Origin: Candidatus Poribacteria bacterium
Lineage (GTDB): Bacteria; Poribacteria; WGA-4E; WGA-3G
Assembly (NCBI GenBank): GCA_028820635.1
Contig: JAPPIG010000097.1
Coordinates: 1 to 64,000, forward strand
Direction of reading: 5' to 3'
DNA length: 64,000 bases
Below the pieces are notes generated by a model, which ran no database searches, was not told the origin of the DNA, and saw only the letters and a program-made list of their open reading frames with translations. Shown one piece after another: positions 28,250 to 62,579 of the stretch (position 1 is its first letter; every line of letters begins with the position of its first letter). Both the position numbers and the translations under genes were made by a program.

Positions 28250-28306
28250 TTTAGAACTAATAAAGGAGGTGAGGCTCGTATACGAACCCACAACCTTATT
28301 AAAATG

Positions 28307-28377
28307 AGACCTCGCTCGGATTCGAACCGAGATTTTTAGCTTGGCTGGCTAACGTCGTTCCGTTCGACTTCGAGGTC
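28307..28377 (-). other. tRNA-like cloverleaf (71 nt) on the minus strand
   Basis: All four stems form: acceptor GACCTCG/CGAGGTC (7 bp), D-arm GTCG/CGAC with GG in the loop, anticodon arm TTAGC/GCTAA with 7-nt loop CAGCCAA, T-arm CTCGG/CCGAG with loop TTCGAAT. Spacing between arms is right (2 nt, 1 nt, 4-nt variable region, 0 nt). Position 33 is A instead of U and position 8 is A, so a working tRNA-Gly(GCC) is doubtful. There is no encoded CCA. It is either a decayed tRNA gene or a structural mimic; the good promoter reads the other strand. Confidence 0.55.
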
Positions 28378-37919: not shown

Positions 37920-37993
37920 CTGTGTGTCCCCCTCAATAGAGATTAGATTTGTGCGGATACCCGTATTTCGTGGTGTGTCCGCGTATGCTACAG

Positions 37994-38050
37994 AAGGGAC
38001 ACATGGTTTGTCTGTGTCCCTTTTTTCAATCTACGCGTAGCAGATTGAAA
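37994..38050 (-). promoter_or_regulatory. Two hairpins following T-loop element E in the ParB-like gene leader
   Basis: H1 TTTCAATCT / AGATTGAAA (38024-38050) abuts element E. H2 AAGGGACACA / TGTGTCCCTT (37994-38022) follows at once. The same order, element-H1-H2, occurs at the four other element copies. Confidence 0.7.
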
Positions 38051-38051
38051 T

Positions 38052-38099
38052 ACGCTGATTCGGGCTTGCACCGAGTTGTCTGCTGTATCAGAAAAGCGT
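38052..38099 (-). ncRNA. T-loop three-way-junction element, copy E
   Basis: Minus strand: P1 ACGCT/AGCGT, hairpin TCTG-ATACAG-CAGA, then a T-arm-like hairpin with TCGG/CCGA core and 7-nt loop TGCAAGC, abutting the 3' strand of P1. U at loop position 1 and A at position 5 are kept, as in tRNA T-loops. It lies between the stop of the 119-residue gene and the ParB-like start. Confidence 0.65.
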
Positions 38100-38138
38100 A
38101 GGCAGGTAGCGAAGTTTGCCACCTGCCCGATAGTGTTT

Positions 38139-38498
38139 TCATGCTTGCGTGTTATCGCGTTCTGGCGATGTCGGGATACCCAACGCTTCCAAGATAAGTT
38201 CAATGGTGTTGCAGATTCGTATGGGTACATATTTCCATTCTTCATCATCAACTTGTTCGGCAAAGTCTTGAAGTATCTGTGTGAGTCGTTGTTCGTGTGC
38301 TTTCTTTTCCACCTCTGGTTCAGAGAACGCCCAAGCGATACCGTCTATAAATGCTTCGGCTTCTGCGCGCGTGCTGAAACTTTTCATACAGTCGTGCCGT
38401 CTGAAATGTTCTTCATCTTGGTAGAGAAAGAAAACAATATCATTGCTGGTTGCGAGTATGATGTCCGCCACAGGCGTTTTGAGTTCAAGTCTTTCCAT
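38139..38498 (-). CDS. Hypothetical protein of the small-gene operon
   Basis: 119 residues, mixed alpha/beta, acidic. It starts MERLELKTPVADIILATSND, has a CMKSFSTRAEAEAFIDGIAW helix and the tail GIPTSPERDNTQA. The ATG has only a distant AAGGAG about 30 nt upstream. It belongs to the minus-strand series of small genes typical of phage early regions; function unknown. Confidence 0.6.
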   Translation of the reverse strand: MERLELKTPVADIILATSNDIVFFLYQDEEHFRRHDCMKSFSTRAEAEAFIDGIAWAFSEPEVEKKAHEQRLTQILQDFAEQVDDEEWKYVPIRICNTIELILEALGIPTSPERDNTQA

Positions 38499-38533
38499 GT
38501 GATTTTCAGGGACGGTTGCCCGTTCCTGCTCCT

Positions 38534-38974
38534 TTATCCAAAGCAGGTATGTTCACTGCAATTGCGGGCTGAGTCGTAAACGCAGTCGCTTGCTTGGTAT
38601 CTCTCTTTATATGTACCTAATAGTTCACCGAAGTTGCCTCGTTTGTGCGGGATGGGTTCGTCCTTTTCTAAATTCCTTCTGTAGACATGGAATTTACAAT
38701 TTCTCTCTATAATATGAAAGACTGCCCGAAAAGGTGTCCGTTTGGCTGCCTCTTGGAGTTGTCTGTCAAGGGCGATTTCTCTGTTTTCCTTTGCGCGTTC
38801 GGTGTCCGTGTAATTATCTGCAAAGGTTCGGATTTCACCGAAAACAGCGTCAACCTTTTTCATAAGGTCTGCGGTCTCGGTGGCGGATGTGCCAACGTTA
38901 AAAAGTAAGTAGTCTTGTAACTCATTCTTGGCGTCAAGTGCTACGCTATCAAAGCGTTCGCGATGATGTGCCAT
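38534..38974 (-). CDS. Hypothetical helical protein
   Basis: About 146 residues from the ATG at 38974, which has AAGGA 9 nt upstream (an earlier in-frame start overlaps the upstream hairpin). Long helices (DAKNELQDYLLFNVGTSATE, RAKENREIALDRQLQEAAKR), then a His/Cys-containing segment and CSEHTCFG at the C-terminus, which may bind metal. No family recognised. Confidence 0.6.
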   Translation of the reverse strand: MAHHRERFDSVALDAKNELQDYLLFNVGTSATETADLMKKVDAVFGEIRTFADNYTDTERAKENREIALDRQLQEAAKRTPFRAVFHIIERNCKFHVYRRNLEKDEPIPHKRGNFGELLGTYKERYQASDCVYDSARNCSEHTCFG

Positions 38975-38997
38975 GTTAGGTTTCCTTGTGAGGTTGT

Positions 38998-39019
38998 GGG
39001 GTGACTTGATTGTCACCCC
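38998..39019 (-). promoter_or_regulatory. Intercistronic hairpin
   Basis: GGGGTGAC, 6-nt loop, GTCACCCC between two small genes; no T-run, so probably an RNA-stability or processing hairpin. Confidence 0.65.
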
Positions 39020-39028
39020 GTTGCGTTG

Positions 39029-39345
39029 TTAGGCAGCGATAACCAATTCGTAGTCAAAATCTTTGTCATCTGATTGTCTGATGATAAGTTCTACTGGCGC
39101 GACGACATTCTCGTTGTCAAAGGTGTCTATCCATTTGAACAGATTATTGGTAACAAGCAGTTTGACCAGACTTTTCCCCTCCTTATGAATATCTACCTCA
39201 ACGACATCAATGTGAATTTGATAGCCGCGGAACATTCTGCCAACGGCTAATGCGACTGGACAGCGTTGGCAATCGCCACCGATACCTGCTAATATGTCAA
39301 TGTCGGTGACCTGCCCCGCATGCCTTCAATTTGTGCAAAATCCAT
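39029..39345 (-). pseudogene. Small gene interrupted by one frameshift
   Basis: The ATG at 39345 with AAGGA upstream opens MDFAQIEGMRG. After a one-base frame change at the GCGGGGC run near 39320 the protein continues VTDIDILAGIGGDCQRCPVA and LAVGRMFRGYQIHIDVVEVD to ELVIAA at 39029. The downstream part alone could start at ATG 39235 (68 residues). It is either a real mutation, a sequencing error or programmed frameshifting; no classical slippery heptamer is present. Confidence 0.55.
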
Positions 39346-39464
39346 AATTTTCAGGTTCCTTCTGTGAAAAGAATGCTCAGATTACGTTCTGACGCATTTT
39401 TTAGAAAAGGGATAGGTGATAACCCACAGGTATATGTCGGCTATTCACCTATCCGCTATCTGTG

Positions 39465-39671
39465 CTATTCACCTTGAGATTTCGGTGCGCGTATCCCGCC
39501 TTCATCTAAAATTCGTTGATGTGGGAGAAGTCGGATACCGACAATCGCTTCCATACCGAATCCGGGGCCTATCTCTGTATAATAGAGATTGCCTTTTTTC
39601 AACTCGGTATCGTTGACGATTTTACGCTCACCCGTTTCTAAAGTGATTTCATACTGGTTGACGTGTTGCAT
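39465..39671 (-). CDS. Small hypothetical protein
   Basis: 68 residues, AGAGGTC ribosome binding site. A compact beta-rich sequence (YEITLETGERKIVNDTELKK, FGMEAIVGIRLLPHQRIL) suggests a small SH3-like barrel. It is the first gene downstream of T-loop element A and the GTGGTA palindrome. A long hairpin with GGATAGGTGA/TCACCTATCC arms lies just after its stop. Confidence 0.55.
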   Translation of the reverse strand: MQHVNQYEITLETGERKIVNDTELKKGNLYYTEIGPGFGMEAIVGIRLLPHQRILDEGGIRAPKSQGE

Positions 39672-39684
39672 TGCTCTGACCTCT

Positions 39685-39773
39685 GTGGTAAAATACCACT
39701 ACTTTCATTTTATACTCACTGTAGCGGGGGATTGACACGTTCCCTGCTACTCCCAACTTACCCTCTGTAAGTT
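39685..39773 (-). promoter_or_regulatory. Leader hairpins and GTGGTATTTTACCAC palindrome following element A
   Basis: H1 AACTTAC/GTAAGTT (39755-39773), H2 GTAGCrGGG.../CCCCGCTAC (39721-39750) and the 15-bp palindrome GTGGTATTTTACCAC (39685-39699), which also occurs at 42339-42353 and 48557-48571 in the same place. The palindrome may be an operator or part of the RNA fold. Confidence 0.7.
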
Positions 39774-39779
39774 GTGGAT

Positions 39780-39826
39780 ACGGAAGGACGGAATTGAACC
39801 GTCCTATCGCACCTATTGCGTTCCGT
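39780..39826 (-). ncRNA. T-loop three-way-junction element, copy A
   Basis: Minus strand, 47 nt: P1 ACGGAA/TTCCGT, hairpin CGCA-ATAGG-TGCG, T-arm GGACGG/CCGTCC with loop TTCAATT. The T-stem and P1 are contiguous, giving a 12-bp stack as in the acceptor/T-stem of tRNA. It starts 20 nt after the stop of the 216-residue gene. Confidence 0.75.
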
Positions 39827-39845
39827 TAGTATTTCGGTTGTGGGA

Positions 39846-40496
39846 TTACCTGTCAAAATCCTGTATGTTATAACTGGCTTGTAGTTCTGCGGACTTTATG
39901 TCCGTAGTCCTTAACGCTGCGAGGGTGCTGATTTCCTCTCCCGCATCGGTTGTGACAGAATCAATCTTGCCGTCCGCGTCTACTCTCGCATTCCAAAATT
40001 GCGTATCGCCATCAGTGAGTTCAACGCGTAGATGTGATTCGTAAGGGATTTGGTCATGGAGAAGCGGTTTGGGGTCTATACACCCGTCATCGTTGAGGTC
40101 AAGGTCAAAGTGTGGCAGCAGTTTTGAAAAATACATAGGTGCTGTCCAGTTGCCGAATAACTTTTCAATGTAGTCGGGACACCCTTCAAACCTTTTATCC
40201 GATAGCCACAAACAACTTTTGCGTCCATCGTATCCTGTTTCCACGACCGCCTCTATAATGCCATTGGCAAGGATACCTAAACAGACGACCTGCCCGAAAG
40301 GTGTGATGTCGTTGAGTTGCGGTGTTTGGTCATCACAAATCTTTACCTCAGCCTTGTCAAAACAGATTGTTGTGGTATGCTCTGGGGTTTCTGCGTCATC
40401 TTCAAGGATGTCAACGTCTACCATGTTGTCGGTATACACATCAGAGATGAAGCCGACTTCCCCATCGGGTGTGATTACACGTTTTCCTAATAACAT
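39846..40496 (-). CDS. Hypothetical protein, paralogue of the gene at 45633
   Basis: 216 residues with AAGGAG. It opens MLLGKRVITPDGEVGFISDV (an SH3/KOW-like strand pattern) and has DQTPQLNDITPFG, SCLWLSDKRF and a C-terminal VTTDAGEEISTLAALRTTDI. All these landmarks recur in the 210-residue protein at 45633-46265 (DQRPQMDDITPLG, GLWLSDDRM, VTTSEGEQIHNLATFRDTGI), so the two genes are old duplicates. The LWLSD segment is also found in the 255-residue protein at 41551 (DUF7007-like). Role unknown; perhaps recognition of small ligands or peptides by a shared phage-type domain. Confidence 0.7.
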   Translation of the reverse strand: MLLGKRVITPDGEVGFISDVYTDNMVDVDILEDDAETPEHTTTICFDKAEVKICDDQTPQLNDITPFGQVVCLGILANGIIEAVVETGYDGRKSCLWLSDKRFEGCPDYIEKLFGNWTAPMYFSKLLPHFDLDLNDDGCIDPKPLLHDQIPYESHLRVELTDGDTQFWNARVDADGKIDSVTTDAGEEISTLAALRTTDIKSAELQASYNIQDFDR

Positions 40497-40521
40497 CGTC
40501 TAACTCCTTTGTAGAAAGTGG

Positions 40522-40544
40522 AAGCGCGCTTAGTAGGCGCGCTT
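40522..40544 (-). promoter_or_regulatory. Intercistronic GC hairpin
   Basis: AAGCGCGC, 7-nt loop, GCGCGCTT just upstream of the ribosome binding site of the 216-residue gene. Confidence 0.65.
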
Positions 40545-40549
40545 TCTGT

Positions 40550-41293
40550 TTAGTTACCGAATTCCAAGACCGTCTCACTAAAGAGGCCTTGATATTGTTG
40601 TTCAAGCGACTCTAAATCGCTATCATCGTCTTTGAGTTTCTCATAGTAATGTTCCAACTCAGCAGACAATTCACAAAGTTTACTGATACGTGATTGTAAG
40701 TCTTGCTGCCGCTCGGATAACTGCGCGGGTGTCTGCTTTTCTGTATCGGATGGACACAGATAAAACTCATGCCGTCTCATGTGTTCGGTTAGGAATATGT
40801 TCGGCAAAACTTCACGCGTCAGGCGATAGGCACCGTTATCCTGACTGAAATGCTTGACTTCCCACACAGGTCTGGGTTGCGATGTGATATATTCATCTCG
40901 GTTGAGATTAACGTTATCGCCTATTTTCACGGGTTCAAGCAAGTTCGCTACGATATGCCAGTCCTCATTATCCAAGTAATAGTCGCTCTTGACATACCAC
41001 TGGAAGTTACGCCATAGGTATATTGACTGGATATTCCGTTCCGAGTAGGTCAAAAACGCATTCAGAGAGAGTGAAATGGTAGGTGCGGGGTTCTTATATT
41101 CGCTTACCTTGCCAGTGTCCCCGTCAATGCTTGCCATCTCACCGTGATACGCTATCGCTCTCGCGTTCTCATCGGTATTGTAGTGCGTGAGCAGAGATTT
41201 ACCGTTGATGTCCATCTTTGCACCTAAATGACAATATGAAGCGGTGACGTTGCCATCTTTATTCAGATAGCCGATGTAACTGCGGCTTCCCAT
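40550..41293 (-). CDS. Hypothetical phage/plasmid-type protein
   Basis: About 247 residues from the ATG at 41293 (AGGAGAA upstream). Begins MGSRSYIGYLNKDGNVTASY with HYNTDENARAIAYHGEMASI, a pattern of a small enzyme-like N-terminal domain, and ends in a coiled coil (LSERQQDLQSRISKLCELSA, EHYYEKLKDDDSDLESLEQQ). No known family that I can name with confidence. Part of the small-gene operon. Confidence 0.6.
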   Translation of the reverse strand: MGSRSYIGYLNKDGNVTASYCHLGAKMDINGKSLLTHYNTDENARAIAYHGEMASIDGDTGKVSEYKNPAPTISLSLNAFLTYSERNIQSIYLWRNFQWYVKSDYYLDNEDWHIVANLLEPVKIGDNVNLNRDEYITSQPRPVWEVKHFSQDNGAYRLTREVLPNIFLTEHMRRHEFYLCPSDTEKQTPAQLSERQQDLQSRISKLCELSAELEHYYEKLKDDDSDLESLEQQYQGLFSETVLEFGN

Positions 41294-41315
41294 CGTGTTT
41301 CTCCTGTAAATGAAT

Positions 41316-41339
41316 AGAGGTACAATTGCTTGCACCTCT
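41316..41339 (-). promoter_or_regulatory. Intercistronic hairpin
   Basis: AGAGGT and ACCTCT arms extended by three more pairs with one mismatch, small loop TTGC region, between the 67- and 247-residue genes. Confidence 0.55.
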
Positions 41340-41343
41340 TGGA

Positions 41344-41547
41344 TTATTGGGGTTTGTCAACTTCCCATATTGCTTCAACGAAAATCAACCCACCACACCG
41401 ATAGAAAGAATACTGAACATGTTTGCCCGTCAGATAAGACAGACACGCGTCGCATAACCGTGTGACAAAGGTTTTCTTCTCGCTTTCAACGCAGGTGTGA
41501 CGCTCCGTTGCTTCTGTGCTATTGCAGGTTGTGTGATTACAATCCAT
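41344..41547 (-). CDS. Small Cys-rich hypothetical protein
   Basis: 67 residues with AAAAGGTGAGAA before ATG. Six Cys and three His (CNHTTCNS, ERHTCVES, RLCDACLSYL, RCGG) suggest a zinc-bound fold with CDAC as one half of the site. Located 3 nt after the 255-residue gene; co-transcribed. Function unknown. Confidence 0.55.
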   Translation of the reverse strand: MDCNHTTCNSTEATERHTCVESEKKTFVTRLCDACLSYLTGKHVQYSFYRCGGLIFVEAIWEVDKPQ

Positions 41548-41550
41548 TTC

Positions 41551-42318
41551 TCACCTTTTACTATTGAAGTTTGTAAATACATAAGGTTCAAGTTGGATTG
41601 TTATTGGTTGTACCCGCTCACCCGCATCAAACGCCTTGAGGAATTCCGCAGCGGCTTTGGGCAGTGGACAATACTTCCAAACTCCCGGACGCTGTTGGAG
41701 TGTCCGATGTGTGCTAATCAACGATTCCGTCTGTCCTGTAACACGGCAATACGCTTCACTTATCGGTCCCCCGTAGTGTCCTTCGGTATCTGAATAGGTG
41801 CCATGCTGCTTCTGACTGAACCAATCTTCACCACGCCACGTTTGACGGGATTGTTTGCCTTTTTCAATATCTTCTGCGGTTATCTCTAATGCCATCGTGT
41901 CAGTGACAAGAGAAAGTAAACCGAAGTATTGTAACACTTCAGCAGCATCACAATCTTCCTCTGCCCATCTCCGATTGCCTACGAATGATTTGTAAGACTT
42001 GGGAAGTTTCTTTATCCATTCATCCGATAACCACAACCCCCCGTGACGTGCCGTTGAAACAAAGTAAAGCCCTTCGGTCAACATCTTAACGTCTTGAGGC
42101 TTGCCCCACGGTGTTCTGCTATCCTTTAGTAAGTCAAGAAAATCACAACGTGCAGGTTTGGTAGCCCTGCCTTTCAACTTTGACTCTGCTATCATCGCGT
42201 CTCTCGGTGACCAAGAATAACTGAAGTTGCCCTCGGATATTTGACTCGGCTCCTTTTTTGCGGGTTTGCCAAGATGGATAATCTCTTGGTAAATCTGTTC
42301 TAAACTATAGTAAGACAC
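41551..42318 (-). CDS. DUF7007-like hypothetical protein
   Basis: 255 residues, GTG start with AAGGAGT. The central part STARHGGLWLSDEWIKKLP, then RRWAEEDCDAAEVLQYF follows the pattern T-x-x-HGG-x-x-LS...P...EED-C/W-A of the DUF7007 domain from plasmids and phages. This domain often sits in proteins of unknown function near DNA-metabolism genes. The first gene behind element B and its GTGGTA palindrome; two smaller genes follow it closely. Confidence 0.65.
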   Translation of the reverse strand: MSYYSLEQIYQEIIHLGKPAKKEPSQISEGNFSYSWSPRDAMIAESKLKGRATKPARCDFLDLLKDSRTPWGKPQDVKMLTEGLYFVSTARHGGLWLSDEWIKKLPKSYKSFVGNRRWAEEDCDAAEVLQYFGLLSLVTDTMALEITAEDIEKGKQSRQTWRGEDWFSQKQHGTYSDTEGHYGGPISEAYCRVTGQTESLISTHRTLQQRPGVWKYCPLPKAAAEFLKAFDAGERVQPITIQLEPYVFTNFNSKR

Positions 42319-42338
42319 TTGAATTACTCCTTGATGAT

Positions 42339-42415
42339 GTGGTAAAATACCACTTGATTATGCATGGTAGCGGGGTATTTTATACCCCGCTACTCCCCAC
42401 CTACACCTTGTAGGT
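42339..42415 (-). promoter_or_regulatory. Leader hairpins and GTGGTATTTTACCAC palindrome following element B
   Basis: H1 ACCTACA/TGTAGGT (42399-42415), H2 perfect 12-bp stem GTAGCGGGGTAT/ATACCCCGCTAC (42367-42393), palindrome 42339-42353. Order and spacing match the copy at 39685-39773, and both H2 stems share GTAGC/GCTAC ends. Confidence 0.75.
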
Positions 42416-42420
42416 TGGAT

Positions 42421-42467
42421 ACGCAGTCGGGGGAATCAAACCCCAGATTTACACACCAGTGCTGCGT
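42421..42467 (-). ncRNA. T-loop three-way-junction element, copy B
   Basis: 47 nt: P1 ACGCAG/CTGCGT, hairpin CAC-TGGT-GTG, T-arm GGGG/CCCC (extended to 7 with one mismatch) with loop TTTGATT, contiguous with P1. Upstream there is no coding gene, only a promoter at 42621-42650, so this copy sits in a true 5' leader. Confidence 0.7.
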
Positions 42468-42620
42468 GTTCGGAGTAATTTCTACATGCCTCACCTCTAT
42501 ACGCCACCATCTGCCACTGGGCTAATCTCGTTCAGTGTCCTTTCTGGAGAAGGTAACTGCTGCGGGTTTCGCGCAACAGGGGCATGCTATTTTGTTTTCA
42601 AGGAACATTTATTTTATACT

Positions 42621-42650
42621 ATGATAACATAAATTCAATTTATTTGTCAA
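42621..42650 (-). promoter_or_regulatory. Sigma70-type promoter
   Basis: TTGACA (42650-42645), 18-nt spacer, TATCAT (42626-42621). It would drive a leader of about 190 nt containing element B, then the 255-residue gene. The remaining 42651-42876 shows no gene. Confidence 0.6.
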
Positions 42651-42876
42651 GTATTTAGTCATCTTTTTAGTGAACTTTTTAATTTTATCTGTCGATTACG
42701 CTATCCGAACACAAAACGGGCGTCATACTCCGATTTCACGATTTACCGTAAAATCTGATGGTATGCCATCCTGCTTTGTGTTCAAATTGACGCACGTCGC
42801 GTTTTTTTAAATGCTTCTGTGGTAGAACCCATGCCCATCAATCTATTCTACCTGACTATGAATATGTTAGGTAATT

Positions 42877-43599
42877 TCAAGGATTACAATAAAGTGCTTC
42901 ACACTTATCCTTGCGAACCGTATATCCCAATGAGATGAGTTTCGTAACGATTTCTGCTTCGGTAAACGCATCAAACGGGTCTGTTTTGTTATCTTCTGCG
43001 GCTAATGACATGGATTCACACGCCTCGCGTGCATCTGTGTAGTTGATACCGATATAGGCTTGTGTGGTGGTGACGTTCTTGTGTCCTAACAGTTCTCTGA
43101 CCATGTAGATGTCTCCGACTTTCTGGTAGAACCGCTGTGCGAATGTTTTACGCAATGTATGCGTTGCGAGTTTGCCGTTGAGTCCAGCCTTGATAAATGC
43201 GTCTTTCAGGATTTTGTGAATCGCTTGGCGTTTTGCTGCGACAACTTTGCCACCTGTCTTTTTGCGTGACGGAAAGAGCGGACGAGACGGGTCAATATCC
43301 CCGAAGTGCTGTTGATGCCATTCTATGACATCACAGATAGCAGCGATACCGTCGCGATTGACGGGGATTGTTCGTGACGTTTCGCGTCCTTTGACGATGG
43401 CGAGGTCAAATTGGAAGTCGGTTACAGGCTTATCGTTTTGCCAAACATCTTCTACCTTGATCGCGAGCATTTCTGAAACGCGTCCACCGATTGAAACGCC
43501 TAATAGAAACAAACTTCTATTTCTAATCTCAAAAGTGCCGTCAAATGCCGCAATGACGCGGCGAATTTCACTGTTCGTCAGCGGTCTTGTGCCTTTCAT
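42877..43599 (-). CDS. Tyrosine recombinase/integrase, catalytic domain only
   Basis: 240 residues. Catalytic set complete: R40 (GGRVSE), K70 (IVKGRETSR), H147-x-x-R150 (THTLRKTFA), H173 (LLGHKN) and Tyr182 (TTTQAYIGIN). It lacks the N-terminal core-binding domain of phage integrases, like the small plasmid/integron-associated recombinases used for dimer resolution or inversion. The leader (43600-43674) can fold into two mutually exclusive hairpins. AAGGAG precedes the ATG. Confidence 0.9.
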   Translation of the reverse strand: MKGTRPLTNSEIRRVIAAFDGTFEIRNRSLFLLGVSIGGRVSEMLAIKVEDVWQNDKPVTDFQFDLAIVKGRETSRTIPVNRDGIAAICDVIEWHQQHFGDIDPSRPLFPSRKKTGGKVVAAKRQAIHKILKDAFIKAGLNGKLATHTLRKTFAQRFYQKVGDIYMVRELLGHKNVTTTQAYIGINYTDAREACESMSLAAEDNKTDPFDAFTEAEIVTKLISLGYTVRKDKCEALYCNP

Positions 43600-43626
43600 T
43601 GTATGATACTCCTTTAGTGATGGTGC

Positions 43627-43664
43627 GTAAGCAGAAACACAATTGTCCGCTTACACAGTGTTTC
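43627..43664 (-). promoter_or_regulatory. Interlocking alternative hairpins in the recombinase leader
   Basis: On the minus strand GAAACAC, TGT, GTAAGC, 8 nt, GTGTTTC, T, GCTTAC: arms of two perfect stems (7 and 6 bp) in the order A-B-A'-B'. They can form either stem or a pseudoknot. The last arm ends 28 nt before the recombinase ATG. Confidence 0.55.
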
Positions 43665-43674
43665 CGGTAACTTT

Positions 43675-43917
43675 TTACGGATTATCAGTCCATTCGGCTT
43701 CTAACACATCAAGCCGTTTGTGTAGTTCAGCGATTTCGTCAAGTGTGGCTTGTATCCGTGCTTTACGGAAACCGCTCTTGTTGAGAAGCCGAATTATCAA
43801 GCCGCCATGATAACTGACAAGATGCCCTTCAAAGCGGCGGATATACCGATAAGCCGTTTCTACGTTGATTGATTTCTCAATGCCCATTCCCCAACCGAAT
43901 GTCGCGGGTTTATACAT
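43675..43917 (-). CDS. Small hypothetical DNA-associated protein
   Basis: About 80 residues from ATG 43917 (MYKPATFGWGMGIE); a GTG at 43938 inside the upstream hairpin is an alternative. Contains NVETAYRYIRRFEGHLVSYH and a helical, basic C-terminus (IIRLLNKSGFRKARIQATLD). It may be a small HTH-type protein. It lies just upstream of the recombinase, so it could be an excisionase-like partner, but this is a guess from position. Confidence 0.5.
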   Translation of the reverse strand: MYKPATFGWGMGIEKSINVETAYRYIRRFEGHLVSYHGGLIIRLLNKSGFRKARIQATLDEIAELHKRLDVLEAEWTDNP

Positions 43918-43927
43918 GGAAATAGCA

Positions 43928-43945
43928 GGGACGCTCACGCGCCCC
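43928..43945 (-). promoter_or_regulatory. GNRA-capped intercistronic hairpin
   Basis: Minus strand GGGGCGC-GTGA-GCGTCCC: 7-bp stem (one G-U in RNA) with a GUGA tetraloop. Confidence 0.7.
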
Positions 43946-43955
43946 TGTCCTTATG

Positions 43956-44156
43956 TTATTCACATTCAATTTCGTCCAAGATATTTTGGCAGTTGATGGA
44001 TAAAATCTTGAGTTTATCCCGCAGTTCAACAGTGTCCTGTCCAAATACGCGTGCCAAACATGCGTTGGCGATGTCACGGAGTTATTCCACATTTTCATCA
44101 GAGATTGTGTTGACGCTCTTGTGAAAGTATCCGTCCCATCTCCGTGTGATTTCCAT
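43956..44156 (-). pseudogene. 66-codon gene with one in-frame TAA
   Basis: The ATG overlaps the previous stop (TAATG). It reads MEITRRWDGYFHKSVNTISD, ENVE, then TAA (44082-44084), then LRDIANACLARVFGQDTVEL and RDKLKILSINCQNILDEIEC to a proper TAA. Both halves look coding, so one base change has split the gene, or the two halves work separately. Confidence 0.5.
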
Positions 44157-44368
44157 TACAACGACACCCTCTTTTCGCGTTTGAGAACTGCCTTGAATTC
44201 AGAAACAAGAATGTCAACATAATCAGGTGTGAGTAAACCTGTAGCCGATTTTCTTACCTGTTCAATGCGTTTGGTTACGGTCGGTTCATCCCAAACGACC
44301 GTGTCTGTATCCGCAACCTTGAACATCAAAGCGGCAAGCGCGCTCAATGTTATCATCATCATTTCCAC
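44156..44368 (-). CDS. Small helical hypothetical protein
   Basis: 70 residues, GTG start one base after the stop of the 31-residue membrane peptide. The N-terminal hydrophobic stretch MMMITLSALAALMFKV is followed by charged helices (TKRIEQVRKSATGLLTPDYV, DILVSEFKAVLKREKR). It may be membrane-associated. Unknown family. Confidence 0.5.
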   Translation of the reverse strand: MEMMMITLSALAALMFKVADTDTVVWDEPTVTKRIEQVRKSATGLLTPDYVDILVSEFKAVLKREKRVSL

Positions 44369-44369
44369 C

Positions 44370-44465
44370 TCACAACTGTGTCTTACTGATGATGTAGCCC
44401 ATAACTATCCAAAACAACATGGGGATACCTGTCAATGCAAGTAAGACAAATAAAATGTCTATCAC
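44370..44465 (-). CDS. 31-residue single-pass membrane peptide
   Basis: GTG start with AAGGAG at good spacing. The sequence MIDILFVLLALTGIPMLFWI then VMGYIISKTQL is one hydrophobic helix with a short charged tail. Stop codon lies directly before the next gene's GTG. It is the first gene after element C. Phage-type small membrane proteins of this size modulate host membrane functions; no family known. Confidence 0.55.
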   Translation of the reverse strand: MIDILFVLLALTGIPMLFWIVMGYIISKTQL

Positions 44466-44538
44466 AGTTTCTCCTTGTTTTTTTACCTGTATCAAGATAA
44501 AATAGTTGGATACATTGTAAGTTTTCTATCTTGTGGTT

Positions 44539-44589
44539 AAGGGGAGAGATACCTGTCTGTCCCCTTTTCTGTAGCCCAGTGCTACAGAA
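44539..44589 (-). promoter_or_regulatory. Two hairpins following T-loop element C
   Basis: H1 TTCTGTAGC/GCTACAGAA (44567-44589) and H2 AAGGGGA/TCCCCTT (44539-44566). Same order as at the other copies; a CAAGATA...TATCTTG pair follows in the leader. Confidence 0.7.
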
Positions 44590-44590
44590 T

Positions 44591-44639
44591 ACGCAAGCGG
44601 GGAGTTGAACCCCGCCAGAGCGTACCGTCTACGTTGCGT
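44591..44639 (-). ncRNA. T-loop three-way-junction element, copy C
   Basis: 49 nt: P1 ACGCAA/TTGCGT, hairpin CGTA-GACGG-TACG, T-arm GCGGGG/CCCCGC with loop TTCAACT, stacked contiguous with P1 (12 bp). Its 5' base coincides with the stop codon of the 77-residue gene. Confidence 0.75.
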
Positions 44640-44872
44640 TAGTATTCCTTGATACCGTTGACTAATGCGTGAAATACCTTGCCTTTCACCCACACCCCAA
44701 AATCACCTTCATCCAGTATCATTTGGACACGGGAACATAAAACACTATCTGGTATCTCACCTGATTGGTATTCATCGCAAAGCGCGGCGACTTCTGCCGA
44801 CATATCGGTGTCATCAAAACACACATCGGCTAATGCCACCGTTACGATGTGTGCAGCCTGTCGGGTTGTCAT
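44639..44872 (-). CDS. Small acidic hypothetical protein
   Basis: 77 residues; ATG overlaps the stop of the preceding gene (ATGA). Helical with conserved-looking TRQAAHIVTVALADVCFDDT, DEYQSGEIPDSVLCSRVQMI. The stop codon is the first base of element C. Function unknown. Confidence 0.55.
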   Translation of the reverse strand: MTTRQAAHIVTVALADVCFDDTDMSAEVAALCDEYQSGEIPDSVLCSRVQMILDEGDFGVWVKGKVFHALVNGIKEY

Positions 44873-45102
44873 TCGGTTTCTCCCTTGTGAGTAATGACCG
44901 CATCTATGTGACCGTCTTGTTCACACGATTCACAAGTGCCGTCAATTATTCTGTTTTCTTTGTGTTCAAGTTTGAAAATGTCAAGTTCAGGACAGTTGTA
45001 CGGCAAGTTGTCATATTTTGCGTGATTGAAACACTTCTCGCAAATCGTGAACGGCTCACCGATGCGTCCTGATACGATGTCAATGTGACGCGCGAATAAC
45101 AT
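44869..45102 (-). CDS. Small zinc-finger-like hypothetical protein
   Basis: About 77 residues from ATG 45102, chosen for AGAGGTG 6 nt upstream. CEKCFNHAKYDNLPYNC and CESCEQDGH give a four- or five-Cys metal site. Likely a small zinc-ribbon protein of the phage-type operon. Confidence 0.6.
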   Translation of the reverse strand: MLFARHIDIVSGRIGEPFTICEKCFNHAKYDNLPYNCPELDIFKLEHKENRIIDGTCESCEQDGHIDAVITHKGETE

Positions 45103-45118
45103 AGTTTCACCTCTGTTT

Positions 45119-45313
45119 TCAGTCATAGGTCATGATATTGTCCGCCTCAAAGCCTTTTTCCTCACACACCTCTTTGAGTGTATCCGTCAATAACATGCTA
45201 TCGTTGATAGTTTGACACTTCGGAGCGGCTTTCTGAAAAAACTGCTTAAGTTTAGACTCATTGAGTAAGAGTAGCAATTTCTTGAGTTCCGCCCGACTTT
45301 TCTCGTTAGCCAT
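45119..45313 (-). CDS. Small helical hypothetical protein
   Basis: 64 residues, Lys/Leu-rich N-terminal helix (RAELKKLLLLLNESKLKQFF), then CQTINDSMLLTDTLKEVCEE. Co-transcribed with its neighbours; unknown function. Confidence 0.5.
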   Translation of the reverse strand: MANEKSRAELKKLLLLLNESKLKQFFQKAAPKCQTINDSMLLTDTLKEVCEEKGFEADNIMTYD

Positions 45314-45321
45314 CGTAAATC

Positions 45322-45341
45322 GGGGACGCTCGCGCGCCCCC
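45322..45341 (-). promoter_or_regulatory. GNRA-capped intercistronic hairpin
   Basis: Minus strand GGGGGCGC-GCGA-GCGTCCCC: 8-bp stem with GCGA tetraloop. Confidence 0.75.
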
Positions 45342-45354
45342 GCCTTTCTCTGAT

Positions 45355-45597
45355 TTAGTAACTTTCTTGCTTACCGAATTCATCTTCACAGGTGCGTTTG
45401 TGACAAATTGGGTCGTTGTATTGTGGATTATGGATTATCCATTGTCCGCAGATAACGCAGCTATCAGGGTGTTCTGGTAATTCCAATAATTCCAGTAAGT
45501 AATCCAGAGCTGCTGACGAAGTATTGAAATTGCCTTTCTCCCGAATGTCTGTTAGAAACGACCTTGCTTTAGAACTCAACCGAACACGATTTTCCAT
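45355..45597 (-). CDS. Small protein with RHH-like helix and zinc-binding tail
   Basis: 80 residues. NRVRLSSKARSFLTDIREKG then SSAALDYLLELLEL resembles a short DNA-binding or dimerising helix pair. CVICGQW...ICHKRTC forms a CxxC-x-C-x4-C metal site. Could be a small regulator; family not known. Confidence 0.55.
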   Translation of the reverse strand: MENRVRLSSKARSFLTDIREKGNFNTSSAALDYLLELLELPEHPDSCVICGQWIIHNPQYNDPICHKRTCEDEFGKQESY

Positions 45598-45607
45598 TAT
45601 GTTGATA

Positions 45608-45625
45608 GGGACGCTCGCGCGCCCC
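45608..45625 (-). promoter_or_regulatory. GNRA-capped intercistronic hairpin
   Basis: Minus strand GGGGCGC-GCGA-GCGTCCC. Sequence nearly identical to the hairpin at 45322 although the flanking genes differ. Confidence 0.75.
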
Positions 45626-45632
45626 CGCCTCG

Positions 45633-46265
45633 TTAGAAATCTTTGATGGTGTAACGTGGAATTAGGTTGGCATCAATGATACCTGTATCTCTAAATGTCG
45701 CGAGGTTGTGGATTTGTTCTCCCTCTGAAGTGGTGACAGAGACGATATTACCCTCTCCGTCAACAACAGTCCCCCATTTCTCCGTTCTACCTGATTCAAA
45801 CATAACTTCAATTTCAGCATCTTCAGGTATCGCGTGGTGTTCCAATCCTTTGAATACGATATGACCTTCGTCCCAGTGTAAATCAAAGTATTCAAGCACC
45901 TCATCAAAATCTTTTAGCGATGCCCAATGGTGAAATGTAAGGTTTATGAAACCTTCAAGATAAGCCATACGGTCATCCGAGAGCCATAAGCCCGCATAAC
46001 GTAACAATCCCTCTGTGCAGACTGCGATAATACCCTCTCGTAAAAATCGTGTACCCGTGATTTTACCTAATGGTGTGATGTCGTCCATCTGCGGTCTCTG
46101 GTCAACCGCGATGTGAACCCCATCGTTGAAATGAAATTCCAAGTATGTTACTTCACCGTTTTCTTCAAGAATACCAACGTCAAAAATGCCATCTGTAAAG
46201 ACAGCAGAGACAAAGCCCTGTGTGTCAGTAGGAGTGATGACTTTCTGACCTGCTTTGTAAGTCAT
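45633..46265 (-). CDS. Hypothetical protein, paralogue of the gene at 39846
   Basis: 210 residues. The start ATG overlaps the previous stop (ATGA) and has GGGAG. Its order of landmarks, QKVITPTDTQGFVSAVFTDG, QRPQMDDITPLGKI, YAGLWLSDDRMA, then SVTTSEGEQIHNLATFRDTG, matches the 216-residue protein throughout with moderate identity. The duplicates are placed about 5 kb apart, each within its own sub-operon headed by an RNA element. Confidence 0.7.
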   Translation of the reverse strand: MTYKAGQKVITPTDTQGFVSAVFTDGIFDVGILEENGEVTYLEFHFNDGVHIAVDQRPQMDDITPLGKITGTRFLREGIIAVCTEGLLRYAGLWLSDDRMAYLEGFINLTFHHWASLKDFDEVLEYFDLHWDEGHIVFKGLEHHAIPEDAEIEVMFESGRTEKWGTVVDGEGNIVSVTTSEGEQIHNLATFRDTGIIDANLIPRYTIKDF

Positions 46266-46516
46266 TGCGTGTCTCCCTTATCGTAAATCGGCATCAAATA
46301 TAAGCGGTCACCGTTGAGAATGTCCACTGTCTTTAGATGCTGATTATTCGCGTACCATTTGCGAGTTTTACTATCAAATGAATAGCACCGTTGCCATCGT
46401 CCGCGTGTAGGAAACAAGCGGGATGCGATGAGTTTAGCGTGCCGTAAGGTTTTCGCTCGGATAGTTCGCTCGCTATGGTTAGCATTAGTGAAAAACATAA
46501 TTTTATAGGCTTGCAT
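46262..46516 (-). CDS. Small basic hypothetical protein
   Basis: About 84 residues from ATG 46516 (AGAGG upstream; an earlier in-frame start at 46531 is inside the previous gene). YKIMFFTNANHSERTIRAKT, LRHAKLIASRLFPTRG and a beta-rich tail. Translation is coupled to the 210-residue gene by ATGA overlap. Unknown. Confidence 0.5.
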   Translation of the reverse strand: MQAYKIMFFTNANHSERTIRAKTLRHAKLIASRLFPTRGRWQRCYSFDSKTRKWYANNQHLKTVDILNGDRLYLMPIYDKGDTQ

Positions 46517-46524
46517 AATTGCCT

Positions 46525-46767
46525 CTACCAAGTATTCAACTCGGTTATGTTTCTGTTCTCGTGATGTAGCAAAGCGATGTCGTTGCCAATGCCGTTCGCG
46601 CTTCTTGCTATATCACCAAAGAACTCCATGATTTCGTCTACAACACTGGGATCGTTTATTTCTTCAGGACACTTCTCAAGTAATGTCTGTAACGCGCTTG
46701 TATCCTGCATGATGCGTTGTAAACCGTTGAATGCTACCGATTTTTGAAGCATTGATTTTGTTCCCAT
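46525..46767 (-). CDS. Small helical hypothetical protein
   Basis: 80 residues, mostly helical and acidic (LQTLLEKCPEEINDPSVVDE, IMEFFGDIARSANGIGNDIA). Weak ribosome binding site. Unknown function within the small-gene operon. Confidence 0.45.
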   Translation of the reverse strand: MGTKSMLQKSVAFNGLQRIMQDTSALQTLLEKCPEEINDPSVVDEIMEFFGDIARSANGIGNDIALLHHENRNITELNTW

Positions 46768-46776
46768 AAATGAAGT

Positions 46777-46797
46777 GCGCGCCCGTAATGGACGCGC
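46777..46797 (-). promoter_or_regulatory. Intercistronic GC hairpin
   Basis: Minus strand GCGCGTCC, 5-nt loop ATTAC, GGGCGCGC, one G-U pair. Member of the same series as 47458 and 48085. Confidence 0.7.
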
Positions 46798-46804
46798 TGA
46801 GTTG

Positions 46805-47428
46805 TTAGCCTCTGTCTACTCCGACCTCATACATATCACCTAAATACCAATTTAGGTTCGCAAAGTATTGGTCAGGTTCTACAGAGAAGTTCATTCTGAA
46901 GATTTCACCTTCTTCAAAGAATGCCCGAACACGATACGAGTCAATTCCACTTGTCTTGACTTGATGTCTGATAACAGAAACCTTGATAATGTCTCCGTCA
47001 ACTCTCTCAAATACATAGCGATAGTGGTTGTAACCCGCGAGATAAACCTTCATTTCACCGCCTAATAGATGCTCACGATAAAGCAGTGTGCCAATTTTCG
47101 CCTCTCGTTCCGCGTCGCGTTCTAAACCGATACGAAAATGTGGAATGATGTGCTTCGCGTCAAGCGGGTTGATGTCTGTTTTCTTGACTTGACAACAAAT
47201 GTCCGTTTTCCAAAGTTTGAGATGTATCGTCTCTATACCGACACCGAAACCTAATAAGGTTGTGTTCGGAGACACTGCCATAAAATCAAACTCGCTCTCG
47301 TTGTCATCGCAATCAAGCATTTCATAGACACCAGAGCGATGACTGTTACCGTAAACGATTATCCATCGCTTGCCACCGCCTCTGTAAGCCTCTACTTTAC
47401 GATAATCTCTGACTTCTTGCTCTTGCAT
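46805..47428 (-). CDS. Hypothetical protein of the small-gene operon
   Basis: About 207 residues from ATG 47428; a GTG 15 nt earlier is an alternative. Sequence is beta-rich (RWIIVYGNSHRSGVYEMLDC, MKVYLAGYNHYRYVFERVDG, IIKVSVIRHQVKTSGIDSYR). No catalytic motif or family recognised. Its hairpin-flanked setting suggests a separately stabilised mRNA segment. Confidence 0.6.
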   Translation of the reverse strand: MQEQEVRDYRKVEAYRGGGKRWIIVYGNSHRSGVYEMLDCDDNESEFDFMAVSPNTTLLGFGVGIETIHLKLWKTDICCQVKKTDINPLDAKHIIPHFRIGLERDAEREAKIGTLLYREHLLGGEMKVYLAGYNHYRYVFERVDGDIIKVSVIRHQVKTSGIDSYRVRAFFEEGEIFRMNFSVEPDQYFANLNWYLGDMYEVGVDRG

Positions 47429-47457
47429 TGATAAAAACCTCACTTATGATAGAGAAT

Positions 47458-47480
47458 AGCGCGCCCGTGATGGACGCGCT
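47458..47480 (-). promoter_or_regulatory. Intercistronic GC hairpin
   Basis: Minus strand AGCGCGTCC, loop ATCAC, GGGCGCGCT. Confidence 0.7.
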
Positions 47481-47499
47481 TTATTCCGAATTCGGAGTT

Positions 47500-47820
47500 C
47501 TAAACTTCATGGACACAACAGAAAACCTCTAACTTGTCAACATGATTAGTCAACTTCGCTTGCTCTCCATCTAAATAGATAGCGGCAGGTTTCTCCTTGT
47601 GTCGCTTCCAAAGTTCTATGAGTTTGTTCAAGTTACGTTTGTTGATACTCTCAACTTCGTAGACTTTAGCAAGCACCGTGTGAATACGAATGATGCCCGT
47701 TTCTTCACCGTCTACCCACTCAAATCGCTTGACTGATGAACCGTTATCCAAGTGAACGGCTACATCGCGACCTGATAACTCAATGGTCTTGTCTGTATCA
47801 GGAAAATGAACAATCAGCAT
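47500..47820 (-). CDS. Small hypothetical protein
   Basis: 106 residues; GCGAGGTAAAC supplies the ribosome binding site inside the previous stop. Beta-rich (IELSGRDVAVHLDNGSSVKR, FEWVDGEETGIIRIHTVLAK) then helical; ends EVFCCVHEV. Unknown function. Confidence 0.55.
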   Translation of the reverse strand: MLIVHFPDTDKTIELSGRDVAVHLDNGSSVKRFEWVDGEETGIIRIHTVLAKVYEVESINKRNLNKLIELWKRHKEKPAAIYLDGEQAKLTNHVDKLEVFCCVHEV

Positions 47821-47822
47821 GT

Positions 47823-48056
47823 TTACCTCGCTAAACGGATTGATAAGTTATTCGCTTTCGTGCGTCTATAGGTTATCTTTCCGTCCTCTACTAACTCGTC
47901 AAGTAATGCTATGCTTTCTGCAATCTCTTGCTTGTCCTCGTCTGTACCTTGTGTCTCGTGCTTGTTTGACTTCCACAAGATATAACCGTTAGCATTAGCA
48001 AAGAACTTGAGAGAAGTAAGTAATTCGTCTTTCGTTTGTTTCGTTTCCGTTGACAT
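47823..48056 (-). CDS. Small hypothetical protein
   Basis: 77 residues, GAGAGGG ribosome binding site. Helix-rich with DELLTSLKFFANANGYILWK and IAESIALLDELVEDGKITYR, a winged-helix-like pattern. It ends 2 nt before the next ATG. Confidence 0.5.
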   Translation of the reverse strand: MSTETKQTKDELLTSLKFFANANGYILWKSNKHETQGTDEDKQEIAESIALLDELVEDGKITYRRTKANNLSIRLAR

Positions 48057-48084
48057 TGATAAGCCCTCTCAAGAGAATAATGAA

Positions 48085-48102
48085 CGCGCCCCGAAGGACG
48101 CG
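48085..48102 (-). promoter_or_regulatory. UUCG-capped intercistronic hairpin
   Basis: Minus strand CGCGTCC-TTCG-GGGCGCG: C(UUCG)G tetraloop on a 7-bp stem with one G-U. Confidence 0.75.
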
Positions 48103-48111
48103 CTCGGAAGT

Positions 48112-48366
48112 TTAGGATTGAACTTCGGAGAGTAATGAATCAACGACTTCGTTTATTTCATCGTCCTCATCATCTTCACCGAAATCTTCTTCAAAATCGT
48201 CTGGATTGAGACAATAGGGATTATGTCCAAAGTCAAGCATATTTTGGTAGAGCGGGTCTTCTGCTCCGCATCCAGGACAACATTCCATCAAAGCCTCAAG
48301 TTCGTCTTGACTCGGATTTATCGTTGGCTGGGTTATTCCGCAATAGCGGCATCTCCAAAATGTCAT
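48112..48366 (-). CDS. Small zinc-ribbon protein with acidic tail
   Basis: 84 residues: CRYCG...CCPGCG (CxxC-x20-CxxC) is a zinc ribbon. The last 30 residues are a run of Asp/Glu (EEDFGEDDEDDEINEVVDSL). The start follows the previous stop as TAGATG. Such acidic zinc proteins mimic DNA or bind RNA polymerase in phages (inference only). Confidence 0.65.
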   Translation of the reverse strand: MTFWRCRYCGITQPTINPSQDELEALMECCPGCGAEDPLYQNMLDFGHNPYCLNPDDFEEDFGEDDEDDEINEVVDSLLSEVQS

Positions 48367-48543
48367 CTATATTGCCTCCCTCATTTGGTCAGCGTGAAAC
48401 TCACCATCTTGACGTTCACCGAAAGAGTCAACATATCTGACTTCATAGACATCATCGCCTAAATCTTCAATGACTACTCCAATGTATTCGTCTGCCCCAT
48501 CAACACAAAGAACGGCATCACCGTTCGCATATTTCGCTTTCAT
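48367..48543 (-). CDS. 58-residue SH3-like hypothetical protein
   Basis: Starts ATG at 48543 with AAAGGAAAAG, stops at 48367 one base before the next ATG. AKYANGDAVLCVDGADEYIG, VVIEDLGDDVYEVRYVDSFG reads as a KOW/Agenet-type SH3 barrel. The 107-residue protein upstream has a related DEVVIKRVDGTECNGTVITY segment. First gene behind element D and its GTGGTA palindrome. Confidence 0.6.
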   Translation of the reverse strand: MKAKYANGDAVLCVDGADEYIGVVIEDLGDDVYEVRYVDSFGERQDGEFHADQMREAI

Positions 48544-48556
48544 TTACTTTTCCTTT

Positions 48557-48646
48557 GTGGTAAAATACCACTGCTTGAATGAAGGTGGTGTTTCATACGG
48601 AACACCGCCTTTTTATTTCTGTTAGCACCACTTGCTGAACAGAAAT
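48557..48646 (-). promoter_or_regulatory. Leader hairpins and GTGGTATTTTACCAC palindrome following element D
   Basis: H1 ATTTCTGTT/AACAGAAAT (48615-48646) abuts the element. H2 GGCGGTGTTCC/GGTGGTGTTTC-type stem lies at 48584-48609. The palindrome at 48557-48571 precedes the ribosome binding site of the 58-residue gene. Confidence 0.7.
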
Positions 48647-48692
48647 ACGGAAGGGCAGACTTACACTGCCCTGTAGGCTTGACCTATTCCGT
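48647..48692 (-). ncRNA. T-loop three-way-junction element, copy D
   Basis: 46 nt: P1 ACGGAA/TTCCGT, hairpin TAGG-TCAAG-CCTA, T-arm GGGCAG/CTGCCC with loop TGTAAGT, contiguous with P1. The 5' strand of P1 overlaps the stop codon of the 107-residue gene. Confidence 0.75.
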
Positions 48693-49007
48693 AGGCAGAT
48701 TACCAATACAAATGCGACTGTGATGTAATTTATCACCGATGACGACTTTGCCATTGAAAGCATAGGCAACACGATAATATCCATCTTTGTTGTAGGTTAT
48801 TACCGTCCCGTTGCATTCTGTGCCATCAACTCGCTTGATAACAACCTCATCTTTAGGTTGAAACATAGCGGAGACTAATGCGTCTCGCTCAACTTCTGTG
48901 AGAACGCCTAAAAATGCTTGACGACCTTCGTAGTCAAGCATGTGGCATACACTTACGGCTTGTTCCAAACTCAATTCTGCTGGTTTTATGCTTACCTTAT
49001 TTGGCAT
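48684..49007 (-). CDS. Small hypothetical protein with KOW-like C-terminus
   Basis: About 107 residues from ATG 49007, which has GAGGTG upstream and overlaps the end of the lipoprotein gene. Helical N-terminus (PAELSLEQAVSVCHMLDYEG) and a KDEVVIKRVDGTECNGTVIT strand pattern as in KOW/SH3 domains. Its last codons form part of element D. Confidence 0.6.
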   Translation of the reverse strand: MPNKVSIKPAELSLEQAVSVCHMLDYEGRQAFLGVLTEVERDALVSAMFQPKDEVVIKRVDGTECNGTVITYNKDGYYRVAYAFNGKVVIGDKLHHSRICIGNLPTE

Positions 49008-57897: not shown

Positions 57898-57924
57898 AAA
57901 CTGAATTTAAAAAGGAGTTAGATT

Positions 57925-62566: not shown

Positions 62567-62579
62567 ATTTAGGAATGCT

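Follow-up and report, generated by a model that had tools for sequence, protein, structure and literature searches.

What do five short tRNA-like structures do at gene boundaries in a bacterial genome? The question is raised by a 64,000-nucleotide stretch of Candidatus Poribacteria DNA (assembly GCA_028820635.1, contig JAPPIG010000097.1; hereafter the window), in which a first-pass annotation, made from the letters alone, had noticed a mini tRNA-like three-way junction in five copies. We find that this element, here called the mini-tRNA, reproduces in about 48 bases the elbow and the acceptor end of a tRNA, and that the anticodon arm is absent. We propose that it is a portable tRNA-mimic leader that controls, by promoting or by gating, the translation of the next gene, and we give this reading a probability of about 0.42. 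Most of what follows concerns the evidence for the fold, for its position in front of genes, and for the other roles that such a fold may have.

All five copies (M1 to M5, Table 1) are present, on the minus strand like the surrounding genes, and every copy has the ACG and CGT ends, the single hairpin and the seven-nucleotide T-loop with U1 and A5 that had been claimed. Read 5' to 3' on the minus strand, the layout is ACG(N3), hairpin, linker, T-arm and (N3)CGT, followed by A and U. The T-stem is contiguous with the acceptor-type stem P1 on the 3' side, over 12 nucleotides (nt) in four copies and 13 in M3. That first reading, of a three-way junction resembling a small tRNA, with a T-loop and a 12-base-pair stack, is supported. 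A loose mechanical descriptor gave 10 matches on the minus strand of the window, four of them copies (M1 not among them), and 4 on the plus strand, where 60 one-strand shuffles averaged 2.3 and never exceeded 6. The descriptor alone is unspecific; the significance of the copies rests on their homologues.

The covariance-model search that the annotation had suggested is informative in this respect. A model trained on M2, M4 and M5 only (R1) recovers the fourth window copy, M3 (E-value 0.0043), together with relatives in related species; M1 follows at E 0.33, and the next-best other match in the window scores 12.9 bits. In a second model that includes all window copies but M1 (R2), the four included copies score 45-67 bits and M1 stays at the background level. 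Four window copies are confirmed as one RNA family, and M1 is accepted because of its context, namely the ACG/CGTAT ends, the 12-nt ruler described below and two hairpins downstream. At no copy scanned was there an Rfam match above cut-off, in line with the claim that no described family has this form, and the Rfam scan of the window gave no family at cut-off except a true tRNA near 28307. ARAGORN and Rfam, run on the window, on 11 loci and on 30 loci, called no tRNA at any copy and only genuine tRNA genes elsewhere. Truncated tRNA genes or scars of attachment sites were considered and rejected, because the copies covary as a family of their own and ARAGORN calls none of them. Integron attC sites, suggested by the nearby integrase and the series of small genes, were also set aside: the fold is that of a tRNA elbow, and no attC-like ends were seen, although this was not a formal test.

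The family is narrow in its distribution. Among the 145 genomes searched with R1, the window's own genome counted in, 21 had matches at E 0.1 or better, and 19 of these belong to the bacterial family of the window; the remaining two lie outside the phylum, and their matches are tRNA-Leu genes. Copies in other genomes of the window's genus scored 35-66 bits, and those of the sister genus 23-49 bits. With R2, 22 of 84 genomes of the phylum were positive at a threshold of E 0.01, giving 42 places in two genera of one family. Phyla other than Poribacteria were sampled in these model searches solely through the genomes of the R1 set; a DNA search pattern made for the core of the long-class copies (described below) matched 23 stretches in 84,980 named genomes, all titled Poribacteria. 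In the genomes searched, the family is limited to one Candidatus Poribacteria family and one tailed-phage record. This viral record (G145, 61 kb) carries a mini-tRNA copy at 60.2 bits and an integrase 71% identical to that of the window, and the ten of its proteins that were scanned include matches to terminase, portal, major head and tail-fibre proteins, which identify a tailed phage. The window itself has an integrase, a sigma-like match and a few other PHROG matches, and no structural phage genes among the proteins scanned. Relatives of its integrase occur in four of the five phage-type stretches fetched (G004 C33 and C54, G010, G046; not G004 C87) and in one phage record.

The annotation had also stated that the stems covary, and the homologues bear this out. 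In 35 distinct rows, 96.7% of the helix cells are paired, compared with 77.5% in shuffles; 102 cells are changed on both sides, compared with 29.3; and the covariation score is 0.509, compared with 0.179 for shuffled rows and at most 0.071 for slid structures. Two measures are weaker: both-side change in 11 of 16 pairs was matched by 15 of 500 shuffles, and the count of 28 further pair types by 88 of 500. The first alignment (A4) held two tRNA-Leu genes (L024 and L026), which the later count excludes; with them kept in, the values are 97.1% paired, 12 of 16 pairs changed and a score of 0.518. These counts favour the model structure because the alignment was fitted to that structure, and the statistics ignore the kinship of the sequences. 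Related copies inflate the counts; several copies in G043 are near identical, yet they lie upstream of different genes.

The likeness to tRNA extends to the tertiary contacts of the elbow, and neither covariance model encodes the contact between D-loop and T-loop. The T-loop has the consensus T-N-N-R-A-N-Y, with a G-C closing pair in all 35 aligned copies, and the loop of the D-type hairpin commonly ends in GG. Across the 35 of 39 distinct copies that were scored, the 18/55 contact is G-U in 32 and A-G in 3, and the 19/56 contact is G-C in 32, G-U in 2 and A-U in 1 (M3, L037, L017 and L032 were omitted as ambiguous; the loops of M5, L014, L015, L068 and L261, where the script had picked another stem, were assigned by hand). 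The unadjusted script table gives 31/4 versus 0/4 (Fisher p 8.5e-4, kinship ignored). The single hairpin behaves as a D-arm docking on the T-loop, the last two bases of its loop covarying with positions 55 and 56; we take these positions to correspond to the tRNA contacts G18-psi55 and G19-C56. The 3' strand from the T-loop to the end of P1 acts as a ruler: 37 of the 39 distinct copies have 12 nt here, and the other two have 13 and 15. This tally is tilted towards 12, since the models used to find the copies provide 12 columns for the strand. Host tRNA genes give 12 nt in 26 of 30 scored, the remaining 4 being off by one with the wrong register chosen. An A comes next after P1 in 36 of 39 distinct copies. 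Both elbow contacts and the 12-nt stack of a tRNA are therefore present, and the cloverleaf with its anticodon arm is not.

Where does such an element stand relative to genes? The placement at gene boundaries holds; to it we add that the element opens the leader of the next gene and is not a mere boundary mark. We folded 12 phage-type modules (five from the window, five from G004, one from G046 of the sister genus and one from the phage record). In the predicted folds, all 12 have the same order: mini-tRNA, two hairpins, and a Shine-Dalgarno (SD)-like sequence with a start codon. The start codon lies 99-145 nt past the base that follows P1 in 12 of 12 modules, compared with 16% for points placed at random on that strand of the window, and in 9 of 12 the first predicted hairpin begins one base after that base. 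A terminator scan of the minus strand called no leader hairpin pair a terminator; on the plus strand, one call (48581-48612) covers the second M5 hairpin. The hairpins before the start codon may also be viewed as the expression platform of a ligand-gated riboswitch, the elbow forming only with a small molecule or a protein, which has been proposed for yjdF. In the excerpted text of PMC9142559, yjdF, a tRNA-like aptamer, does act on translation. The long class has further conserved domains, which would suit a riboswitch as well. However, the genes that follow the copies look unrelated (thioredoxin, superoxide dismutase, NuoD-like, Jag-like, pup and phage genes) and form no regulon, and we hold a riboswitch to be quite improbable. 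The names trx, SOD, NuoD, Jag, dop, pup, tnpA and tnpB are used here as read from the translated sequence rather than from profile searches.

In the sister genus, most copies lie within a unit of about 437 bases with conserved ends, some 55 bases in from its edge; these are the long class. The left end of this unit also precedes serine-recombinase tnpA-like or tnpB-like genes, and a similar right end closes six tnpA-bearing copies. The ends common with tnpA/tnpB copies, and the insertion into a G-rich site without duplication at jag, identify the long class, and only this class, as IS607-type. At jag, an SD-like sequence adjoins the start codon in all 13 empty sites printed (GGAGG in 12), and at the occupied site AGGAG stands to the left of the element and GATATG... 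to the right; judged from these sequences, the family inserts at jag within the SD sequence. AGGAG is the target-adjacent motif in 18 of 22 strains with RAGATH-18-type IS607 TnpBs, according to the part of PMC11061315 available to us.

As in the phage-type modules, the long copies lie sense to a gene and close to its start. Right ends were sought in 27 long copies and located in 25 (L010 and L016 were dropped; L023, L025, L031, L033 and the copy in G033 C67, whose right parts are altered, are omitted from this count). In 21 of the 25, a start codon with an open reading frame (ORF) of at least 40 amino acids lies 2-11 nt past the right end, compared with 16% of random points in 17 of these loci. 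L051, with its ORF broken by an in-frame TGA, and L246, at 12 nt, fit the leader rule by eye only. Twelve stretches have a solo left end; eight of these also have a right end, each 5-11 nt before a start codon (8/8; L088-L101, L248-L259), and they comprise six with a tnpA start, one with a truncated tnpA (L257) and one with another interior (L259). The long RNA is predicted to fold into the mini-tRNA, a three-way junction, a hairpin capable of an H-type pseudoknot, and hairpins at the right end; of the 100 pairs predicted by RNAalifold, 45 show at least one both-side change. The pseudoknot may form, with one compensated change from U-A to C-G in G033. In G018 and G038, the element lies between the dop and pup genes, where dop occupies the place of the left transposon end and the dop stop codon falls within P1. 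In G037 and G056, it precedes the same HMA-type gene, and the right parts are shortened. As a side observation, a second, different interior is common to tnpA/tnpB-less copies of the same transposon family (L096/L259, L102, L103).

Two further explanations were weighed. First, the long transposon RNA might excise itself like an intron, in the manner of an IStron, thus rejoining the SD sequence and the start codon, with the mini-tRNA as a structural domain. Exact excision at jag would put AGGAG next to GATATG again, the 3' end ACAG of the RNA is predicted to pair with an internal CUGU (one covarying case), and IStrons do combine insertion sequence (IS) elements with group I introns (PMC4227781, excerpt). 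However, a whole long element (L046), scanned up to E 10, gave no group I match, nor did 11 loci at cut-off, and the group II match in one whole long element is weak and within the chance range (E 0.16, 18.3 bits against 34). In addition, the pup copies directly follow dop without a left transposon end, and the phage-type copies retain an SD-like sequence downstream; we consider self-splicing a slim chance. Second, the hairpin might be conserved as DNA, as a binding or cutting site for a transposase, an integrase or a packaging enzyme, for which its occurrence in mobile elements speaks. The tRNA-type tertiary covariation, the G-U pairs and the sense orientation of the copies examined relative to the next gene speak against a DNA site, and the tnpA-bearing copies, which should need such a site most, have coding sequence there instead. 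We regard a role at the DNA level as highly improbable.

The main rival to a translational leader is tRNA punctuation, in which RNase P, perhaps with RNase Z, would cut at the mini-tRNA and split a polycistronic RNA at gene boundaries. There are precedents for it in the tRNAs of mitochondria and in mascRNA at MALAT1. The ruler and the A after P1 both suit this reading, and the nearest Rfam match is mascRNA-menRNA at M4 (25 bits, cut-off 42.5, E 0.17). Host tRNA genes have no encoded CCA in 29 of 30 scored, and a T after the discriminator in 22 of those 29 (by script); CCA-less tRNAs are the subject of PMC8549757, as far as its excerpt goes. RNase P is described in the portion of PMC4810234 consulted as gripping the elbow and gauging distance along the T/acceptor stack; the elbow also serves RNase Z and CCA-adding enzymes. 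However, a cut before P1 would hit or remove the upstream stop codon at three places: M4 begins on the final base of the TAA stop that closes ORF 44639-44872, the TAG stop (48684-48686) of ORF 48684-49067 falls inside M5, and the same applies to the dop stop. RNase Z would be hindered, as the base after the post-P1 A starts the next helix in those nine phage-type modules and forms a U-A pair in all 22 long RNAs. This pairing supplies an alternative reason for the conserved base after P1, and our reading of the conserved A-U as an RNase Z signal is weakened accordingly, the U being the first base of the next helix. Moreover, P1 begins with A in 35 of 39 copies and with G in 4, compared with G in 24 of 30 host tRNA genes. 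The stop-codon overlap and the helix right after P1 speak against routine cleavage, and we regard punctuation as unlikely.

We therefore return to the translational leader, and propose the following mechanism. The minimal tRNA mimic would work in cis and form the opening domain of the leader of an mRNA: an acceptor-type stem, a D-type hairpin and a T-arm would build an elbow and a 12-base-pair acceptor/T stack without an anticodon arm, and the next helix, opening as a rule one nucleotide later, would lead to the start codon of the following gene. The elbow would be read by a partner that handles tRNA, most likely the ribosome, and translation would be promoted or gated. The sequences themselves show the fold, the elbow covariation, the ruler, the sense position in a leader and the insertion site at jag; we infer the transcription of the element as a leader, this partner and the direction of the effect. 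In phage-type elements, each of a set of downstream genes would get its own controlled leader. In the sister genus, where an IS607-type insertion splits a gene from its SD sequence, the leader would keep the gene alive and make the insertion tolerable, so that the host could retain some copies, for example before pup. A stronger form of this idea, in which the element is a mobile tRNA mimic of tailed phages and an IS607-type transposon, similar to an internal ribosome entry site, that recruits or gates ribosomes without a native SD sequence and has been retained before pup-like host genes, appears doubtful to us. According to the excerpts of two papers, translation rose 2- to 6.3-fold when tRNAs were placed in the leader of an mRNA, and the yjdF aptamer, which has the shape of a tRNA, is an activator of translation (PMC9142559); the tRNA elbow is the feature read by the ribosome, RNase P and RNase Z (PMC4810234).

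Several points weigh against a translational leader. The RNA of a transposon can be conserved because it serves the transposon itself. In the sister genus, the mini-tRNA lies about 330-380 nt from the start codon. Two long copies depart from the leader rule: past the right end of L048 the start codon is 69 nt away, and L032 has none nearby. M1, M2 and the G004 C54 module carry an additional earlier, weaker start candidate, and the G010 copy, outside the 12-module set, differs in its downstream sequence. The ruler count is biased towards 12, as noted above. The RNAs grafted in PMC9142559 were, in the text available, whole tRNAs with the anticodon arm included, and yjdF deprived of ACCA and its acceptor stem lost only 25% of expression. 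Because the removal of the acceptor stem cost so little there, the ruler is not explained by a yjdF-type effect alone.

How does the mini-tRNA compare with known systems? mascRNA/menRNA (RF01684) is likewise a short tRNA-like RNA within a longer transcript, and was the sole family that Rfam listed for any window copy up to E 5, with the full model at the exact coordinates of M4; its score lies below the gathering score, which leaves M4 outside that family. Unlike the mini-tRNA, mascRNA is the product of an animal nuclear long non-coding RNA, freed by RNase P and RNase Z. The tRNA-like domain of transfer-messenger RNA (tmRNA) shares the acceptor, the D-type loop, the T-arm and the lack of an anticodon arm, but is closed by the two ends of the molecule and carries CCA and alanine identity; the mini-tRNA is internal, and the copies seen have no CCA after the discriminator-like base. 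The tRNA-like structures of plant viruses sit at the 3' ends of viral genomes, whereas the mini-tRNA is internal and opens leaders in bacteria and phages. Those of the turnip yellow mosaic virus (TYMV) type resemble it in a near-tRNA elbow and use other means elsewhere in the fold (PMC4810234, in excerpt). Like yjdF, the mini-tRNA folds much as a tRNA does within the leader of a bacterial mRNA, and its D-loop and T-loop associate; yjdF acts on translation but, in the excerpt of PMC9142559, has an anticodon-like stem, responds to azaaromatics and pairs its T-loop with the SD sequence when off, whereas the mini-tRNA has two arms besides P1 in about 48 nt. The Rfam scans of the window, of 11 loci and of the window copies (up to E 5) had no yjdF match among those listed. 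The transposon copies agree with the IS607 transposons that have an AGGAG motif, as excerpted from PMC11061315, in the AGGAG left flank and in the tnpA/tnpB-like genes of fuller copies; they differ in that a structured RNA with the mini-tRNA sits in tnpA/tnpB-less copies, and no RAGATH-18 match was among those listed for 11 loci and the whole long element. The titles and abstract openings of the literature surveyed contain no description of the element, whose elbow is defined by covariation and which has no Rfam family above cut-off. Among natural internal tRNA mimics it would be the smallest known to us, defined by elbow covariation and found in bacteria and phages. If the proposal is true, a transposon that inserts into SD sequences keeps the host gene expressed. 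The family lets one ask in a natural setting whether a leader with the shape of a tRNA alters translation, and links this question to mobile elements through an SD-inserting IS607-type family with an RNA that may offset the damage.

Table 1. Mini-tRNA copies and associated features of the window.
Feature	Position	Strand	Remarks
M1, mini-tRNA copy, divergent	38052..38099	-	T-loop TGCAAGC, D-loop ATACAG; R1 13.9 bits, R2 9.3 bits; 12-nt ruler
M2, mini-tRNA copy	39780..39826	-	T-loop TTCAATT, D-loop ATAGG; R2 66.6 bits
M3, mini-tRNA copy	42421..42467	-	T-loop TTTGATT; 13-nt ruler; R1 21.0 bits (not in that model), R2 45.3 bits
M4, mini-tRNA copy	44591..44639	-	T-loop TTCAACT, D-loop GACGG; R2 60.4 bits
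M5, mini-tRNA copy	48647..48692	-	T-loop TGTAAGT, D-loop TCAAG; R2 52.7 bits
Two leader hairpins after M1	37995..38050	-	predicted fold; start codon at 132 nt, weaker candidate at 47
Two leader hairpins after M2	39721..39778	-	predicted fold; start codon at 108 nt, weaker candidate at 41
Two leader hairpins after M3	42367..42419	-	predicted fold; start codon at 102 nt
Two leader hairpins after M4	44539..44589	-	predicted fold; start codon at 125 nt
Two leader hairpins after M5	48582..48646	-	predicted fold; start codon at 103 nt
Palindrome GTGGTATTTTACCAC after M2	39685..39699	-	between the hairpins and the gene's SD-like sequence
Palindrome GTGGTATTTTACCAC after M3	42339..42353	-	precedes the gene after M3
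Palindrome GTGGTATTTTACCAC after M5	48557..48571	-	precedes the gene after M5
Tyrosine integrase of mobile element	42877..43599	-	relatives in other phage-type stretches

Around the five modules, other features were seen. The palindrome GTGGTATTTTACCAC has three exact copies genome-wide, all in the window, and a TATAAT-like sequence precedes some of them; it is possibly an operator or a translation hairpin. As a marker it was given up: it led to 97 viral-contig stretches, and none of the 80 scanned had a mini-tRNA at E 1. Immediately upstream of M1 lies a terminator-like hairpin (38100-38128, minus strand) whose T-rich tail is the 5' part of M1. Shortly upstream of M3, a tRNA D-arm-like sequence, TTAGCCCAGTGGCAGA, is found at 42480-42545 (minus strand), and the matching place in G004 has none. 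Just downstream of the L017/L244 copy in G010:C551 is a second mini-tRNA-like stretch that no model search reported.

The same mobile element encodes a beta-CASP metallo-hydrolase of the RNase J/CPSF type (33314-34888, minus strand), with relatives in two G004 stretches and distant relatives in 27 phage records; it is a candidate RNA-processing partner. Protein queries 41551-42318 and 36399-37919 found zero relatives in viral contigs, and DNA query 36401-44400 found none in phages. A tRNA-Gly gene (28306-28377, minus strand) near the phage-type region lacks an encoded CCA and has an unusual D-arm; it could represent a phage tRNA or an attachment site. DNA methyltransferase, GHKL-type ATPase and HNH-type genes at 6371-11717 and 56272-63689 (plus strand) resemble defence or modification islands. 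Finally, a small HMA-type gene lies downstream of L023, L033 and L051, with an in-frame TGA that in L023 and L033 stands in a TGMT-U-GxC context; judging from this context, the HMA-type gene of L023 and L033 is possibly a selenoprotein gene.

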